From Aquabacterium sp. OR-4 (GTDB taxonomy: Bacteria > Pseudomonadota > Gammaproteobacteria > Burkholderiales > Burkholderiaceae_C): a DNA stretch of 64,000 nt. The position numbers and the translations under genes were made by a program. The stretch covers positions 496,001 through 560,000 of the forward strand of contig NZ_JAOCQD020000003.1 of assembly GCF_025290835.2 (NCBI RefSeq), read 5' to 3'. The notes below the pieces were generated by a model. That model saw nothing but the letters and a program-made list of their open reading frames with translations. It made no database searches and had not been told where the DNA came from. Numbering within the stretch: position 1 is the first letter of the stretch; each line of letters begins with the position of its first letter. Shown here piece after piece: positions 55,161 through 64,000 of this stretch.

Positions 55161-58100
55161 GCTTGCATGAGGCGGGGCAGGAAGCCCTGGATCGCAACCG
55201 CCAACCCGCCCACCATCTCCCAACAGCCTCGGCTTCGATGAGGCCGGGGCAAGAAGCCCCGGATCACCAACCTCAGCCCGGGCGCCTTTCGCAGCATCGC
55301 CGATGCTTCAATGAGGCCGGGGCAAGAAGCCCCGGATCACGTCGCATAGGTCATGTGACGTATCCCCCGTGCACCCTGCTTCAATGAGGCCGGGGCAAGA
55401 AGCCCCGGATCACATGGCGCTGGCGCTGGGGGCCGTGTTTGCTGCTGTAGCTTCAATGAGGCCGGGGCAAGAAGCCCCGGATCACCATGCTGACCCCGCA
55501 ATTCGGCTTGCCGCTGCACGACGCTTCAATGAGGCCGGGGCAAGAAGCCCCGGATCACGGCGTCCCGGGCGGCGAACATGCCGGGGATGGCCGAGCTTCA
55601 ATGAGGCCGGGGCAAGAAGCCCCGGATCACCTCTGCCGCCCCGACAACAAGCAGAACCGAGCGCGGCGCTTCAATGAGGCCGGGGCAAGAAGCCCCGGAT
55701 CACCACGATGATGTCGCGCGACAGGCGGGCCATCTTGGGGCTTCAATGAGGCCGGGGCAAGAAGCCCCGGATCACCCGGTCAAATTGACGGCCGACGAGC
55801 ACCGAGCGCTGCTTCAATGAGGCCGGGGCAAGAAGCCCCGGATCACGTGGTGGTGGCGGATCAGCCCGAAATCGCGTACCGCGCTTCAATGAGGCCGGGG
55901 CAAGAAGCCCCGGATCACATCGGCAACGGCACCCTCGTGGATGGGCTGACCCTCGCTTCAATGAGGCCGGGGCAAGAAGCCCCGGATCACGCGGCTGCGG
56001 GGCCGGCATGCCCTTGGGGTCAGTCCAGCTTCAATGAGGCCGGGGCAAGAAGCCCCGGATCACTAACCGGAAGCACCACGGCCGTCGCTGACTACGTTGC
56101 TTCAATGAGGCCGGGGCAAGAAGCCCCGGATCACCTGTGCAAGGCATTCGTTGCTTCGGCGCGATCAAGGAGCTTCAATGAGGCCGGGGCAAGAAGCCCC
56201 GGATCACGCCGGACGAGACGGCCATAGCGGCGCCAGTCCAGTAGCTTCAATGAGGCCGGGGCAAGAAGCCCCGGATCACGGCAAACGCCGGGCCCACGTA
56301 GCCGGCGGCGGCCGTGCTTCAATGAGGCCGGGGCAAGAAGCCCCGGATCACGATTCTCGACCCAGGGCGGCGGCTGACCACGCCCACGCTTCAATGAGGC
56401 CGGGGCAAGAAGCCCCGGATCACCAGCGCGGCATCGATGTGGCAAGCGTCAGCGCGTCCGCTTCAATGAGGCCGGGGCAAGAAGCCCCGGATCACGTGGC
56501 GGTGATGTACTCCGTGCACATCGGGTCAATGCTTCAATGAGGCCGGGGCAAGAAGCCCCGGATCACGCGCCGAACCCCACGATCTTCGGCAGCGACCAAG
56601 ACCGCTTCAATGAGGCCGGGGCAAGAAGCCCCGGATCACCTGCCGTACTAGCATCGCCGATGGACTCCAGGTTGAGCTTCAATGAGGCCGGGGCAAGAAG
56701 CCCCGGATCACCGCTGTAGGTGGCGCGGTGGAACGGTTCCACCCCACGCTTCAATGAGGCCGGGGCAAGAAGCCCCGGATCACACGGCTCCAGCAGCTAC
56801 CTTCCGACTCGTATCGTCGCTTCAATGAGGCCGGGGCAAGAAGCCCCGGATCACCAGCAGACCGTCTACACACCACCCGCGGTGATCCCGGGCTTCAATG
56901 AGGCCGGGGCAAGAAGCCCCGGATCACCCCGTACCGAGCAGCGACCCGAGCGACCTGCAGTTGCTTCAATGAGGCCGGGGCAAGAAGCCCCGGATCACCT
57001 GTGCACACTGCAGCGCATCAGGCCCCCACAAAGCAGCTTCAATGAGGCCGGGGCAAGAAGCCCCGGATCACGAGGCTCCGGCCCAACCCCCCGCCCCGCT
57101 GCGCAGGCTTCAATGAGGCCGGGGCAAGAAGCCCCGGATCACCCCCAGCCCGAGGCCTGACCCACCATGCCGCGCATCGCTTCAATGAGGCCGGGGCAAG
57201 AAGCCCCGGATCACATGTCCAGTGATCAGTCCAACGCCGAGGCAGTCGGCGCTTCAATGAGGCCGGGGCAAGAAGCCCCGGATCACCCCACCCGCCGTCA
57301 GTTGCAGGGGCCGCGGTAGGCCAGCTTCAATGAGGCCGGGGCAAGAAGCCCCGGATCACCCGCCGACACGGCCCAGCTGCAGCACTGGGAACAGGCTTCA
57401 ATGAGGCCGGGGCAAGAAGCCCCGGATCACAAGGCACTCAATCCGCATTCCCGAGCACTCTCCAAGCTTCAATGAGGCCGGGGCAAGAAGCCCCGGATCA
57501 CGGCGGCGGCGCTCAAGTCCCGGTTGGCTGCCGTTTCGCTTCAATGAGGCCGGGGCAAGAAGCCCCGGATCACGATGTCGCTCGACGCCTGCCCCGTCGC
57601 CTTGGCTAGCTTCAATGAGGCCGGGGCAAGAAGCCCCGGATCACTACCGCCCCGGCACCGCCGTGATGCTCACCCTGGTGGCTTCAATGAGGCCGGGGCA
57701 AGAAGCCCCGGATCACGCGAAGTAAGGCCCGGTGTAGTGCGCGTAGATCTCGCTTCAATGAGGCCGGGGCAAGAAGCCCCGGATCACCTCCCATACGCGC
57801 CTCGGGCTGCCTTCCTGCCCTACGCTTCAATGAGGCCGGGGCAAGAAGCCCCGGATCACCACCTGGCCACCCGGCGCGGCCGGCGCCTGCCCCGGCTTCA
57901 ATGAGGCCGGGGCAAGAAGCCCCGGATCACGCCGGATTGCGTCACCCGGCCGTACTCGTTGCCGTTGCTTCAATGAGGCCGGGGCAAGAAGCCCCGGATC
58001 ACTGGGGGGTTCCATCATGGTTTGGCTCAGTGATTCTGCTTCAATGAGGCCGGGGCAAGAAGCCCCGGATCACGCAGCATGCGCTCCAGGGTGGAGTGGG

Positions 58101-59010
58101 GCTTCATCTCGCTTCAATGAGGCCGGGGCAAGAAGCCCCGGATCACGGTAACGCGCCCGACACGGCGCGCACCGAGTAGCCGCTTCAATGAGGCCGGGGC
58201 AAGAAGCCCCGGATCACCCGCTCCGTGGGCGGTCTCGTCGGTGGTGACGGGCAAGCTTCAATGAGGCCGGGGCAAGAAGCCCCGGATCACCCGATCAGCA
58301 GCGAGCGGGCCGCGCCGGGGTCGTCGCTTCAATGAGGCCGGGGCAAGAAGCCCCGGATCACGCCATGCCCATGGTCGAGATGCTGCAGCGGATGAAGGAG
58401 CTTCAATGAGGCCGGGGCAAGAAGCCCCGGATCACCTTGTCAAAGAGCTGACCGATAGCCGGTTCAGCGCGCTTCAATGAGGCCGGGGCAAGAAGCCCCG
58501 GATCACAAGCATCCGCCTTCGCGCCAGTGCCGCCAATGTCCACGCTTCAATGAGGCCGGGGCAAGAAGCCCCGGATCACGACGATATCAAGGCGGCAAAG
58601 GATAAGGGCCGGAACGCTTCAATGAGGCCGGGGCAAGAAGCCCCGGATCACATGGTGTGGGGCACGTTCTCCGCGGGAGAGACGATGCTTCAATGAGGCC
58701 GGGGCAAGAAGCCCCGGATCACGCCGTCTGCTGTTCAACGATGGCACCGGCCTGAGCTGCGCTTCAATGAGGCCGGGGCAAGAAGCCCCGGATCACCAGA
58801 GTGCGAAAAACTGTGGAGACGACAGAGACTCGCTTCAATGAGGCCGGGGCAAGAAGCCCCGGATCACGCTTCTGCGCTCGGGAAGATGGCTGGCATCGCC
58901 GGGCTTCAATGAGGCCGGGGCAAGAAGCCCCGGATCACTGGATCAAAGCCGAAATCCCCCGACCGCAGCACCTTGCTTCAATGAGGCCGGGGCAAGAAGC
59001 CCCGGATCAC
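55161..59010 (-). CRISPR. Type I-G CRISPR array, 54 repeats of 36 bp, 53 spacers
   Basis: The plus-strand repeat starts GCTTCAATGAGG and ends CCCCGGATCAC, with the inner arms CCGGGGC-AAGAA-GCCCCGG. Read on the minus strand it ends ATTGAAGC, like the ATTGAAAC handle of many type I repeats, so transcription is most likely minus and the leader is at the right. Repeats begin every 71–73 bp; spacers are 35–37 bp. All copies from 55305 on look identical. The one at 55232 has one change (TTCGATG). The first unit, 55161–55195, is 35 bp and carries several changes, as expected for the trailer end. Open frames across the array (peptides like MRPGQEAPDH) are artefacts of the repeat. Confidence 0.99.
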
Positions 59011-59283: not shown

Positions 59284-59580
59284 CTACACCACCACGGCCA
59301 TGCGTTCCACGGGCTCGAAGCGGCGCTTGCCCAGGCTTTGAACACGCGGTGTCACGCCATCGGCCGGGCCCACGTCGATCAGCATCACATGGTCTTCGCC
59401 CATGTGCATCGCGGCACTCAGCGATGCCTGCAGCTCGGCGCGTCGCGCCCGGCTCAGCCGGCACTGAAACACCGACAGCTGCAACCATTCGCCATAGCCG
59501 TGCATCAGCTTGAAGATGCTGCGCCAGCGGCGGTCGTCGGCAATGTCGTAGGTGACGATGTAGAGGTGCTCGTCGGTCAT
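59284..59580 (-). CDS. cas2: CRISPR-associated endoribonuclease Cas2
   Basis: 98 residues with the ferredoxin-like Cas2 fold: LYIVTYDIADDRRWRSIFKLMHGYGEWLQLSVFQCRLSRARRAELQASL, with the usual Asp in TYDI and the SVFQC strand. It forms the Cas1–Cas2 integrase core for spacer acquisition. It follows cas4-cas1 after 21 bp on the same strand and is the last cas gene before the leader. Confidence 0.96.
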   Translation of the reverse strand: MTDEHLYIVTYDIADDRRWRSIFKLMHGYGEWLQLSVFQCRLSRARRAELQASLSAAMHMGEDHVMLIDVGPADGVTPRVQSLGKRRFEPVERMAVVV

Positions 59581-59601: not shown

Positions 59602-61446
59602 TCAACGGGTGATGAAGGGCGGCCAGCGGTCGATCTCGCCCAGCATGTGCCGGCCCAGCAGCCGGCACTGAATCTCCACGATCTGCCGGTACTGCGCGGC
59701 ATAGCCGAACAGCGGGTGCGTGATCTCCTGGCCGAGACGCCGCTCGAATGCGGTGATGAAGCTGCGGCGGCCGCGCTCGTTCAGGTTCACGGCATCGCCC
59801 GCGCTGACGAAGTCGCCCAGCCCCACCTCGCCGTTGTTGATCACCGTCAGCACCACTGAATCGGCCAGCAGGGGCCGAAAGGGCTCCATCATGTCGAGTG
59901 CCAGCGCCGGCCGCCCATAGCGTGACTGGTGGTAGACGCCGCGCAGCGCATCAAAGCCCACTGCCGTGAGCGCCACCGCCAGTGTGCGCGCCAGCATCGA
60001 GTAGCCATACGACAACAACGCGTTCACCGCATCGGTGGGCGGCCGGCGGGTGCGGCGCTCGAAATCAAAGCCCCACATCGCGCCATCCGGTCCGGCACCC
60101 GGCCGGCGCTCGGGCGAGATCATCTGGCGAAAGTGCCTGAAGTAGCGGGCGGCGGCATTGCCTTCGATGCCCAGCAGCGCCTCGAGGCTGCGCGCGCGCT
60201 CGGCGGCGTCGATGTCTTGCCTGAACTGGCCGAGCAGTTCTTCAGGCATGGCCTCGGGTTCACCGGCAGCCGCCTTCCAGTTGCGACGCAGCAGCGTGCG
60301 CTGGTTGCGGATCTTGGCGGCCACGATGTCGCGCGCCAGGCGCAGGCAATGCGCATCGTCGAAGCTGGCGCGGTACTGGGCGGTGCGCAGCTCGGCGTTC
60401 TTGTGCCCCAGCCCCACGGTGTGGCCCAGAAACCAGCCGCCATGCGACAACCATGTCACCGGGATCTGGCGCGCCATCAGCTCGTGCAGCGCAGGCGCGG
60501 TGAGGTACACGCCGCCCTGCAGCACCAGTTGCGACACCTCGGCCAGCCGCGCAGTGGCGGCCGGCTCGTCGTCGAGGCTGACCTCCAGCACGTCGCCCTT
60601 CTTGGCCACCTTGGCGCCACGCGCCTGCACATACATCGGCAGGCTGGTGCTGCCGGCCACGGCCAGCGGGCGCGGTGGTGTCTGCCCGGCGCGCAGGTAG
60701 TGCAACTCGTCGGGCAGGCAGATCGGCGCCAATGAGCAGCGCGGGCATTTGGGGCTGTTCTCCAGCGGCGGTGGAATCTGGCCTCCGGTGGCAATCAGGC
60801 GCAAACCCGCAGCGGCCGATCGGGTGGCCGCGCGCAGATCATCGTCAAGCACCACCGGCACCCGCTCACGCGAGGCCACGAAATACAGCACGCCCTCGGG
60901 CACGTCATAGCCATGCTCTTCGAGCAACAGCGCCTGGGCACACAGCTGCACACGCTCGGGCTCGTAGGCGCCGCGGGCCACGTGCGGGCGCTTGCCGCGC
61001 TTGTAGTCCACCGGCACGGCGCGTGTGCCTTCGATCTCGGCCAGGTCCAGCTTGGCCACCAAGCCGAGCGCCTGCGACGACAGCTCGAGCGAGCGCACAT
61101 GGATGCGTGGCTCGGGTTCCACCTCGGCATCGGTTGAATCCTTGGACGCGTCCTTTGACCGTTTGGGTGGCGCAGGCCTTAGCGATGGCTTGTCGACCCG
61201 CTTATGTGCGATGCGGCCTTCAACAGTGTCGGCTGACTCGGCCCACTCGCCCTGCACCCACTCCAGATACGCCAGGCGTGGGCAGTAGCTGAACTCGTTG
61301 ACCATGCGCGCGGGCAACAGCGGCACACCTTCGGGCAGGGGTGGCGCATCCAGCGGAAGAGGCGCCTGCGCGGGCGCATCCGCGGGGTCGACAACTGCCG
61401 GCGCAACCGGCCCAGGCGCTGGATCAGGTGATCGATCATCGGTCAT
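59602..61446 (-). CDS. cas4-cas1: Cas4-Cas1 fusion protein
   Basis: 614 residues; this fusion is typical of subtype I-G. The Cas4 part (about 40–250) has C55 ([13 protein letters not shown]), H81, D134 ([10 protein letters not shown]), D147-x-K149 (VDYKRGK) and the Fe-S cysteines C234, C237, C243 ([11 protein letters not shown]), so the nuclease is complete. The Cas1 part (from about 265) has Glu in [13 protein letters not shown], His in [16 protein letters not shown] and the acidic pair in [11 protein letters not shown]. It trims, checks PAMs and integrates new spacers with Cas2. The start is 58 bp from the divergent antitoxin gene. A 40-residue Pro/Asp-rich tail precedes the Cas4 core. Confidence 0.97.
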
Positions 61447-61457
61447 GGTGGTCTACA

Positions 61458-61471
61458 ATTGCGTACGCAAT
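61458..61471. promoter_or_regulatory. Perfect 14-bp palindrome in the cas4-cas1 / antitoxin divergent promoter
   Basis: ATTGCGTACGCAAT, perfect dyad, centred 18 bp from the cas4-cas1 start and 40 bp from the antitoxin start. Phd/YefM-type antitoxins usually bind such sites to autoregulate. Its position could also cover the cas4-cas1-cas2 promoter. Confidence 0.7.
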
Positions 61472-61504
61472 CCTGTATCGAATGGACGAAAAGGAGCCGC
61501 AGCG

Positions 61505-61855
61505 ATGGACTACGTCACCGTGCGCGAGCTGCGCGAAAAGTCAGGCGAGATCTGGCAACGCGTGGAAGACGGCGAAGAGTTCGTCGTCACGCGCAACGGC
61601 AAGCCGATTGCGCTGCTGGTGCACACCGCGCCGGCCGAGGTGGAAGCGCGCCTGCGCGCGCTGCGGCTGGGCCGCCTGGGCAGCCTGGTGGCGACCATCC
61701 AGACCGATGCCCAGGCCAGCGGCGCCAGCACGTTGACAGAAGAACAGATCCAGGCCGAGATCAACGCAGCCCGGCGCGAACGCCGCGGGGGTCAGGCGCC
61801 CGCGCCGGCCATGGCAGCCGAGCCGCCTGCCAAGCCGTATGCGCGCCGTCGTTGA
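61505..61855 (+). CDS. Phd/YefM-family antitoxin
   Basis: 116 residues from the ATG at 61505, with AAGGAG ahead of it. The N-terminal Phd/YefM DNA-binding fold is clear: MDYVTVRELREKSGEIWQRVEDGEEFVVTRNGKPIALLVHTAPAEVE. The C-terminal part is charged and probably disordered (EEQIQAEINAARRERRGGQ), the usual toxin-wrapping segment. It overlaps the PIN toxin gene by 17 bp. It is likely to repress its own promoter through the palindrome at 61458. Confidence 0.9.
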   Translation: MDYVTVRELREKSGEIWQRVEDGEEFVVTRNGKPIALLVHTAPAEVEARLRALRLGRLGSLVATIQTDAQASGASTLTEEQIQAEINAARRERRGGQAPAPAMAAEPPAKPYARRR

Positions 61856-62243
61856 CACCAATGTCCTGGTATCGGCCCTGATGTCGGCCGGCGGCGCCCC
61901 GGCACAGGTGATGTCCAGCATCGCGAGCGGGCAGTTGCGGCCCGTGGTCTGCGCCGACATCCTGGCTGAATTGCAGGCCGTGCTGCCGCGCCCGCGCTTG
62001 CACCTTCGCGCCGACCGCGTGGCCGAACTGCTGAGCCTGATCGAGCTGACCGCCGAATGGGTGCTGGTGCCCCGATACACCGGCATCCCACCCCTGCCCG
62101 ACCCCGACGACTGGCCTTTCATCGGCGCCGCGCAAGCGGCTGCCTGCCCGTTGATCACAGGCAACCTGAAGCACTTTCCGCCGGGGTTGGGGGTGAGGGT
62201 CATGACGGCGAGGGAGTGGGTGGACTCAATCGGCGCTGTCTGA
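61839..62243 (+). CDS. PIN-domain toxin (VapC-like ribonuclease, TIGR00305 type)
   Basis: 134 residues. PIN acidic residues: Asp in MRAVVDTNVLVSALMS, Glu in CADILAELQAVL, the acidic cluster PDPDDWPFIGAAQAA, and LITGNLKHF near the end. The family consists mostly of RNases held by their cognate antitoxin. It overlaps the antitoxin gene (17 bp) and, convergently, the 3' end of csb2 (18 bp). The pair is thus tightly packed between cas genes without remnants of a mobile element. Confidence 0.92.
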   Translation: MRAVVDTNVLVSALMSAGGAPAQVMSSIASGQLRPVVCADILAELQAVLPRPRLHLRADRVAELLSLIELTAEWVLVPRYTGIPPLPDPDDWPFIGAAQAAACPLITGNLKHFPPGLGVRVMTAREWVDSIGAV

Positions 62244-64000
62244 ATCCATGGCCGGCACCGCCAAGGCGCCGATGCCGGCGAACAGCCCCCCACCCAGCAA
62301 GCTGCTGCGACCCAGCGCCACGGGGCCTGCAATTGGCGTGGGGAACGCGAGCCGCAGGCGTGCCTGCAGCCCACGGCCAGGCACGCCGCACGCGCTCAGC
62401 ACCGTCACCTGCGGCCGGGGCAGGTGGCAGCGCATGCACTCGGCCAGCACATCCGCCGCCAGCGCCTCGGTGGCACTGGCCTTGCGCCGATGGCGCGTAA
62501 CGTCGTACGGCGTGACCGATTCCCAAACGCTGGCGGCGGCAAGCAACGGGTCGTCACCGCGTGCCAACACACCGGTTTGCACGGCATGGCGGCCCGCGGC
62601 GCCGGCGCGCAGGTCAGTCAGCCCTTGCAGCGCCTGTTGCAGAACCACCAGATGCTCACGCTCGCGTGCGAACGCGTGCCGCCGCTCCAGCCTGTGCGGC
62701 GCCAACACCACCCAACGTTGCCGTGGGCCGTCCCAATGAAAGGCCAGATGCCGTGAGGGTTCAGCATCGGGCGCGGTGCTGTCCGAAGCATGGCCGCTGA
62801 AGTAGGCGTTCAAGGCAGCCCGAGCGGACGAACCCAGCACATCGCTGACCCGCGCCATCACCGCGCGGCGCAGGGCACGGGCCAGGTCCAGCGCAAGCTC
62901 CGGCGGCGCGCCGGCCGCTCCTTCGGCCAGCTGCACCACGGCGATGCCGTCGCTCACAGCGCCAGTCCAGGCGGCCGGATCGGTGAGCAAGCCTGCAACC
63001 CGATTCGACGGTGCCAACACGCCCAGGCCCAGGAAGCGTCCGTCACCAATGGCCAATGGCCCGCTGACCGGGCGGTCAAAGCACAAGGCCACATGCCACA
63101 GGCGCTCTTTGGCAAAGCGCGAGCCTTCGGCAAAGGGCTCGGAACGTTTGCCGTGCGCGGTGAACGGCTCGCGCTGCACGCGCACCTGCACGGCCAGGGC
63201 CGGCACGCCCGCATGGCGCAAGGCGCGGTGCACCGCGGCCACGGCGCGGCCTTCCTCGGCCAAACGCTCGTCGGCGCGCTTGGCCTCGGCTGCGTCCTTG
63301 TGCCGAGCCGGGTCGATGCGTCGGCGGGCGGCTGCCTCGGGCAGGGCCAAGGGCGTGACAGACTGCCAGTGCTGAGAGGGCACGGTGTAGTGCGCCAACA
63401 TGACGGCCTGGTCGGATCGCGTCAGCATCCAGGGGGCGACCTCACCGGTGTCGCCATCGATGGCTTGCAGCCCCGAAAACGCCCAATCCAGGTCCTCAGC
63501 CGCCAGCGGGCAGCCGCCGGGAATCTCGACCAGCACCCTGCGGATGGCCTGATCGGCATGCACCGAGCCGATGGATGGCAGCGGCACGATGTGCACCCGC
63601 TGCGCCAACGGTACCCCTCCGCTGCCATCCGCAGCGCGCCCGATCAGGCTGCGCTCGATGGCTTCGGCAGCATCGGGCAAGGCTTGGCGCAGCCGGTCGG
63701 CCGCGGCATCCCGCACGTTCTCCACCAAGGCCGCAGCGCGATGCTGGGGCCAAGGCCAAGGCCAGGGCTTGGTGGTGCCGTGCGCGCGCAGGTCGTACAG
63801 GGCCAGCCGTCGTGACGGGGCGTAGCTGACCGATGCAAAGCGCGGCTTGGGCGCGTTGGTGAACAGCACGCGGGCCTTCTTGCCCACGCCCTCCACGCGC
63901 AGCCGTGGGGCGCGATGCCGCAGCACCAGACTGTCCAGCGCGCCAGGCATCGGACACGGCAAGTTGCGTCCCGCCCTTGTGTCGGACGAGGGTTGGTGCA
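62226..64000 (-). CDS. csb2: Type I-G CRISPR protein Csb2 (fused Cas5/Cas6-type), 5' end beyond the window
   Basis: 590 residues are visible and the frame is open to the window edge, so the N-terminus is missing. Csb2/GSU0054-family stretches: ERSLIGRAADGSGGVPLAQRVHIVPLPSIGSVHADQAIRRVLVEIPGGCPLAAEDLDWAFSGL, KERLWHVALCFDRPVSGPLAIGDGRFLGLGVLAP, SVWESVTPYDVTRHRRKASATEALAADVLAECMRCHLP, and the C-terminal GPVALGRSSLLGGGLFAG (Gly-rich RAMP loop). In I-G systems it processes crRNA and forms part of Cascade. The remaining effector genes (csb1, csx17, cas3) would be to the right, outside this window. Confidence 0.9.
   Translation of the reverse strand, partial: HQPSSDTRAGRNLPCPMPGALDSLVLRHRAPRLRVEGVGKKARVLFTNAPKPRFASVSYAPSRRLALYDLRAHGTTKPWPWPWPQHRAAALVENVRDAAADRLRQALPDAAEAIERSLIGRAADGSGGVPLAQRVHIVPLPSIGSVHADQAIRRVLVEIPGGCPLAAEDLDWAFSGLQAIDGDTGEVAPWMLTRSDQAVMLAHYTVPSQHWQSVTPLALPEAAARRRIDPARHKDAAEAKRADERLAEEGRAVAAVHRALRHAGVPALAVQVRVQREPFTAHGKRSEPFAEGSRFAKERLWHVALCFDRPVSGPLAIGDGRFLGLGVLAPSNRVAGLLTDPAAWTGAVSDGIAVVQLAEGAAGAPPELALDLARALRRAVMARVSDVLGSSARAALNAYFSGHASDSTAPDAEPSRHLAFHWDGPRQRWVVLAPHRLERRHAFAREREHLVVLQQALQGLTDLRAGAAGRHAVQTGVLARGDDPLLAAASVWESVTPYDVTRHRRKASATEALAADVLAECMRCHLPRPQVTVLSACGVPGRGLQARLRLAFPTPIAGPVALGRSSLLGGGLFAGIGALAVPAMDSDSAD

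Follow-up and report, generated by a model that had tools for sequence, protein, structure and literature searches.

A Phd–PIN toxin–antitoxin (TA) pair lies in the middle of a type I-G CRISPR–Cas locus of Aquabacterium sp. OR-4, which raises the question of what, if anything, it does for that locus. Coordinates below refer to the window, the whole stretch of 64,000 nt that was analysed, unless a locus handle is given; L008 is the window's own locus. The initial annotation placed the pair between cas4-cas1 and csb2 on the opposite strand, with 58 bp on one side and an 18-bp overlap on the other, and all of these positions and strands proved exact. The antitoxin gene phd (61505..61855, plus strand) is followed by the toxin gene pin (61839..62243, plus strand). 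The 58 bp (61447-61504) separate phd from the cas4-cas1 fusion gene, hereafter cas4-1 (59602..61446, minus strand; NF049935 cas4g_cas1g, 766 bits; Cas1g in PADLOC), and pin overlaps (62226-62243) csb2, which encodes a Cas5-Cas6 fusion on the minus strand. The 3ʹ part of csb2 lies in the window (62226..64000; TIGR02165, 165.8 bits on this part), and the full gene, Cas56g in PADLOC, spans L008:8226-10526.

The minus strand reads WYL regulator, cas3g, cas8g, csb1 (cas7), csb2, the pair on the opposite strand, cas4-1, cas2 (59284..59580, minus strand; PF09827, 60.1 bits) and the CRISPR array (55232..59010, plus strand; 53 copies of a 36-bp repeat, the last from 58975). The genes for Csb1/Cas7g, Cas8g, Cas3g and the WYL regulator are just past the window end. 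The components by which type I-G is defined, namely the Cas4-Cas1 fusion, Csb2, Csb1, Cas8g and Cas3g, were all found with NCBIfam and PADLOC models. The gene of the WYL-domain regulator, upstream of cas3, lies at L008:15253-16404 (minus strand), equivalent to 69253-70404 in the numbering of the window.

Judged by its domains and gene order, the pair belongs to the ordinary type II TA modules of the Phd–PIN_3, VapBC-like kind. The 116-aa product of phd matches the Phd/YefM family PF02604 at 32.5 bits (Pfam cut-off 29.8) and TIGR01552 of NCBIfam, also above cut-off. The 134-aa product of pin, with a VapC-like ribonuclease fold, matches PF13470 (PIN_3) at 66.4 bits (Pfam cut-off 27) and TIGR00305 of NCBIfam. 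A Phd/YefM domain gene followed by an overlapping PIN gene is the arrangement that defines a type II Phd–PIN module, and the overlap between the phd stop and the pin start is 17 bp both in the window (61839-61855) and in a related locus, L012. The acidic active site of PIN is intact in the alignment: D6 is kept in 117 of 120 aligned sequences, E44 and D88 in 120 of 120 each, and D91 in 118 of 120. When compared with the copies in L012, phd gave dS 0.51 and dN 0.15, and pin gave dS 0.62 and dN 0.26. The dN/dS of about 0.3-0.4, being below 1, indicates that both genes are under purifying selection. The pair looks functional, and we presume that PIN is toxic and Phd labile. Among solved structures, relatives of phd were found at weak E-values only (VapB46, 1.5e-4; Phd, 0.028) and none close to PIN at E up to 1; no PADLOC model was matched by either protein at E up to 0.001. 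The pair resembles known VapBC and Phd–PIN_3 modules (PF02604 + PF13470, TIGR00305) in gene order, overlap, domains and catalytic residues, and the palindrome in its presumed antitoxin promoter region may be a further likeness. Unlike them, it is located inside a cas locus and is divergent from cas4-1.

The 58-bp gap contains a perfect 14-bp palindrome, ATTGCGTACGCAAT (61458..61471), which is centred on GTAC and located 11 bp from the cas4-1 start codon. None of 100 shuffles of the gap equalled it. Operators of Phd/YefM proteins are typically centred on GTAC, and ATTGCGTACGCAAT is likely to be the operator of this module, at which Phd would bind. The 14-mer CTACAATTGCGTAC, overlapping the left part of the palindrome, recurs in L012 and upstream of a phd gene outside CRISPR loci (L217), and it was found in no other searched locus, even when one mismatch was allowed. 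In the pair-less sister loci L009, L010, L011 and L013, the sequence at this place is, by eye, unrelated. Since the half-site stands near a non-CRISPR phd and is absent from pair-less sisters, the element appears to be the TA's own, brought next to cas4-1. CAATTGTAG stands equally far from the cas4-1 start in the window and in L012, suggesting that the two pairs probably derive from one insertion.

L012 has one half-site only, and 83 of 100 shuffles reach the score of its best inverted repeat; that of L217, which has the half-site in common with the window, is likewise weak (92 of 100). A possible -10 box of the phd promoter, TACAAT (61454..61459, plus strand), was noticed by inspection and is conserved in L217. 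Since a sigma-70 consensus scan of 61350-61620 gave no promoter, the phd promoter here is one that we infer. Strong inverted repeats, reached by at most 1 of 100 shuffles, were found in four of 18 other divergent gaps (L017, L027, L064 and L066). The other 14, L012 included, were reached by more than 1 of 100, and the idea that a palindrome is common to the TAs at this position was rejected; several of the other divergent gaps exceed 200 bp.

The pair had been proposed as a dedicated guard of the locus, a view that would suffer if related genomes lacked it at this position or if it were as common outside cas loci. Both were found to hold in part. On the tree of cas4-1 proteins, the window groups with six other loci (SH-aLRT 100); of these seven, two, the window and L012, have the Phd–PIN_3 pair. 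L009, L010 and L013 have no TA at this position, L014 has a decayed piece of pin at the same place, and in L011 the end of Csb2 is fused to a Fic domain (PF02661, E 1.3e-9), which stands in place of the pair. This absence or decay in sister loci indicates that loss is tolerated and that the TA is dispensable. The effector genes of L011 are the closest to those of the window (59-77%). In L012, the TA (69-79%) and cas4-1 (77% identical) are close to the window, but the effector genes are only 25-38% identical, which indicates an exchange of effectors in which the TA and the adaptation module remained together. The fused gene of L011 (L011:5298-8285, plus strand) encodes Csb2 with a C-terminal Fic/Doc domain at residues 844-944 of 995, where the window has phd-pin.

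A PIN match with an E-value no higher than 1e-15 was present in seven of 399 genomes of the order, the window's own included. For the other six copies, the cas proteins of the window, the only queries used for cas neighbours, had no match in the surrounding sequence, which comprised some 1.5 kb to either side or, for two copies, totals of 4.7 and 9.4 kb. All six have an adjacent phd match, a weak one (26%) in L226. The pair's family is thus no rarer outside cas loci than inside in these 399 genomes, and a Phd–PIN family dedicated to CRISPR was rejected, since relatives live outside cas loci (six of the seven order-level matches, as far as the sequence around them reaches). Neither the PIN nor the cas4-1 was found in any further genome of the genus among 149 relatives sampled. 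In L217, the relative of the pair stands beside a divergent MazE-PIN-like pair, making two adjoining TA modules, and its 4.7-kb contig has no cas match.

The same gene order was then sought in other I-G loci, and TA pairs antisense between the effector genes and cas4-1 were found there as well. TA genes, in at least eight family combinations, were present within about 2 kb upstream of cas4-1 (hereafter the slot) in 39 of 91 I-G cas4-1 loci, 28 of the 39 being antisense to cas4-1; for the other 52 loci no TA was labelled in the slot. The I-G sample was the best 80 of 261 loci with a cas4-1 relative. A class-wide draw of 14 I-G loci, five of which are also among the 80, had a TA in the slot of five (L119, L121, L125, L129 and L132). 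In 79 loci, 130 small ORFs from the 2 kb upstream of cas4-1 were compared with Pfam, and TA families led the matches, with PIN 14, RHH 14, PemK 8, Phd 6, MazE 4, HepT 2, MNT 2 and HTH 2, and no transposase was among the 25 of 39 families listed; one ORF can match two families in these tallies. HipA was found in the slots of L048 and L057, and AbiEii in that of L087.

As a control, 97 flanking 2-kb segments of the same loci, 6.6-9 kb from cas4-1 (194 kb, 122 ORFs), gave PIN 3, BrnA 3, BrnT 2 and FitA-like RHH 1 among the 25 of 36 families listed; the top of this flank list was WYL/WCX, with 7-8 of the 122 ORFs. Counting the listed families, TA-family matches per 100 kb were about 33 in the slot and 4.6 in the flanks (9 in 194 kb), an excess of about 7-fold that would drop to about 3-fold were all 11 unlisted flank families TA. 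In a position profile made with HMMs, 49 of 68 TA-like ORFs lay within 1 kb upstream of cas4-1; this profile is partly circular, the HMMs having been built from slot members, and its independent counterpart is the Pfam slot and flank counts. We also tallied 50 host genomes, selected by hand from the 80 loci with a bias towards those bearing a TA: 10 of 89 PemK matches coincided with slot genes against 0.045 expected in 2-kb windows, and four of 356 Phd matches were in slots against 0.18 expected. Chance placement of the TAs was rejected by these tallies and the flank control.

The history of the slot was traced on a tree of 91 cas4-1 proteins (quick LG+G4 search) with slot labels assigned by hand. 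The label of L065 is weak, L011 is the Fic fusion, and L014 and L045 hold remnants for which an assembly error is possible; without L011, L014 and L045, 36 of the 91 rows bear a TA. L077, with Phd 1.4 kb upstream, was scored as no TA, as were L028, L071 and L074, which together with L065 have little upstream sequence. The rows left out were L044 (a copy of L043), seven near-identical duplicates, L008 (the window itself), and L133 and L134 (not I-G), and L130 was left out of the tree only. The presence or absence of a TA required at least 29 changes, and the minimum by family was 15 for PIN (17 rows), 10 for PemK (12 rows) and 7 for Phd (7 rows). An earlier labelling with 38 TA rows required 28 changes, 19 of them forced by well-supported branches, compared with a mean of 29.2 for shuffled labels; TA presence is no more clustered on the tree than shuffled labels. 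These many changes indicate that the modules come and go often. Slot TAs have been gained or lost repeatedly, gain and loss not being separable on this tree.

The slot is not peculiar to I-G. TA-family genes were present at the junction upstream of cas1, or close to it, in at least seven of 20 I-E loci of the same class (of 29). These seven, in which the genes are co-directional throughout, have PIN in L184 (about 0.8-1.2 kb upstream), HTH_37 in L187, UPF0175 in L189, ParE in L190, UPF0175 and PIN in L194, MazE in L199, and DUF433 with DUF5615 in L201. HTH_37, UPF0175 and the DUF433/DUF5615 pair are regarded as TA parts. One further nucleotidyltransferase match and one RHH match came from I-E loci without assignment to a particular locus. 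Among 20 of the 31 I-C loci over the cut-off, two had a slot TA, namely HicA in L183 and a nucleotidyltransferase in L172. I-G specificity was rejected on the I-E result, and samples of this size do not allow the subtypes to be ranked.

The initial annotation considered that a protein Phd–PIN guard in I-G would be new, which is not quite the case. In Sulfolobales, cas cassettes are often interspersed with vapBC pairs, which the authors proposed to help maintain CRISPR-Cas (PMC4390879). Those are also protein TA pairs within CRISPR-Cas cassettes, but in archaea, with a type III-D example named and no fixed slot described in the part of the paper available. A figure legend names two TA systems between Csb2 and Cas4-1 in the I-G locus of Thioalkalivibrio sulfidiphilus HL-EbGr7 (PMC9638904). 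The subtype and the position are those of the window, whereas there are two TA systems and an xpf-like gene, and the excerpt gives this single locus with no analysis. PIN, HicB and MazE genes were listed as loosely CRISPR-associated in the excerpt of another report (PMC1462988). In searches of the literature open without subscription, no paper surfaced that systematically surveys TA genes between effector and adaptation modules.

We consider, with a probability of about 0.5, that the pair is a TA captured at a recurrent junction between effector and adaptation modules, where it would work as a cassette for linkage (addiction) under its own control. Phd, which would be labile, would neutralise the PIN RNase, and at the palindrome centred on GTAC it would repress its own promoter. 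On deletion or silencing of the segment, Phd would decay first and the RNase would arrest the cell. Deletions taking the junction and neighbouring cas genes would then be counter-selected, and the pair may in this way stabilise the cas locus, no Cas protein or crRNA being required for its action. Bound to an operator so near the start codon of cas4-1 (11 bp), Phd would probably also damp cas4-1 transcription; such damping via a shared predicted operator is plausible. The guard idea stands only in part: the gene order is found in other I-G loci and many TA families recur at the junction far above background, and a dedicated Phd–PIN guard is unsupported in view of the pair-less sisters and the relatives outside cas loci.

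The rival hardest to set aside holds that the junction of two separately transcribed modules merely tolerates insertions, so that hard-to-lose selfish TAs pile up there and do nothing for CRISPR. A selfish TA in such a permissive gap would give the same pattern as addiction, and the occurrence of the pair's family outside cas loci, the fast turnover (decayed copies occur in L014 and L045), the shuffle-like scatter on the tree, the slot TAs of I-E loci and the losses that show the TA to be dispensable are all consistent with it. A neutral gap should, however, gather all kinds of cargo, yet TA families lead the slot list with no transposase among the families listed, and the segments 6.6-9 kb away hold far fewer of the listed TA families. 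We regard this explanation as possible, though we would not favour it. That the main function is regulatory coupling, with Phd or Phd-PIN repressing the divergent cas4-1-cas2 promoter and acquisition rising when stress or infection depletes the antitoxin, seems unlikely to us. The perfect palindrome in a short divergent gap, the spacing kept in L012, the strong palindromes in four other gaps, the predominance of antisense slot TAs, and the antitoxin gene being nearer cas4-1 in the antisense pairs inspected would fit it. Against it, the operator appears to be the TA's own, L012 has a single half-site, most of the other gaps have no strong palindrome and several are long, and the I-E TAs are co-directional.

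A guard that depends on Cas, as in CreTA, would have Cascade or a Cas protein hold the toxin off and the loss of cas genes free it, and the position inside a cas locus is the sole point in its favour. CreTA (PMC8730458, PMC9458426 and PMC10097628) likewise couples a TA to a type I cas locus and involves the idea of addiction, but it is RNA-only and repressed by Cascade via ectopic repeats, whereas the window has a protein TA with its own predicted operator. No CRISPR-repeat-like element was found near the pair (best 19 of 36 in the slot against 20-22 in shuffles of the wider region, a score at which a strongly degenerate one is possible). Another 27 labelled slots, compared with their own repeats, gave nothing beyond shuffles (lowest 7 of 100, in L027). 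With no ectopic repeat near it, the pair is not CreTA, and CreTA-like control was rejected for the window and the 27 other slots. The module also brings its own antitoxin, and no trace of a link to Cas or crRNA was found; we consider a Cas-dependent guard highly improbable.

The guard idea gains partial support and becomes a more general one, its most interesting part, in our view, being that many TA families recur at the same junction. Extending the addiction reading, the type I effector/adaptation junction might generally be a site at which protein TA guards dock interchangeably, where unrelated families are recruited repeatedly as a TA in mid-locus stabilises both modules, and where divergent ones put spacer acquisition under stress control through the antitoxin operator. 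We offer this as a tentative and rather doubtful generalisation. Were the slot to function in addiction, ordinary protein toxins, and not only RNA-based CreTA, would widely help bacteria to retain CRISPR-Cas, and adaptation genes may respond to the proteolytic stress that frees toxins. The slot pattern also provides dozens of natural replicates with and without a TA, in which the persistence of CRISPR loci can be compared.

Other kinds of genes were observed at the same place in individual I-G loci. Genes for AAA_14/DUF4143 ATPases lie antisense directly upstream of cas4-1 in L016 (L016:7533-8975, minus strand) and L058 (L058:7674-8930, minus strand), and the slot of L036 encodes a protein with Schlafen AlbA_2, HATPase and Fic-like C-terminal regions (L036:7369-8751, plus strand).
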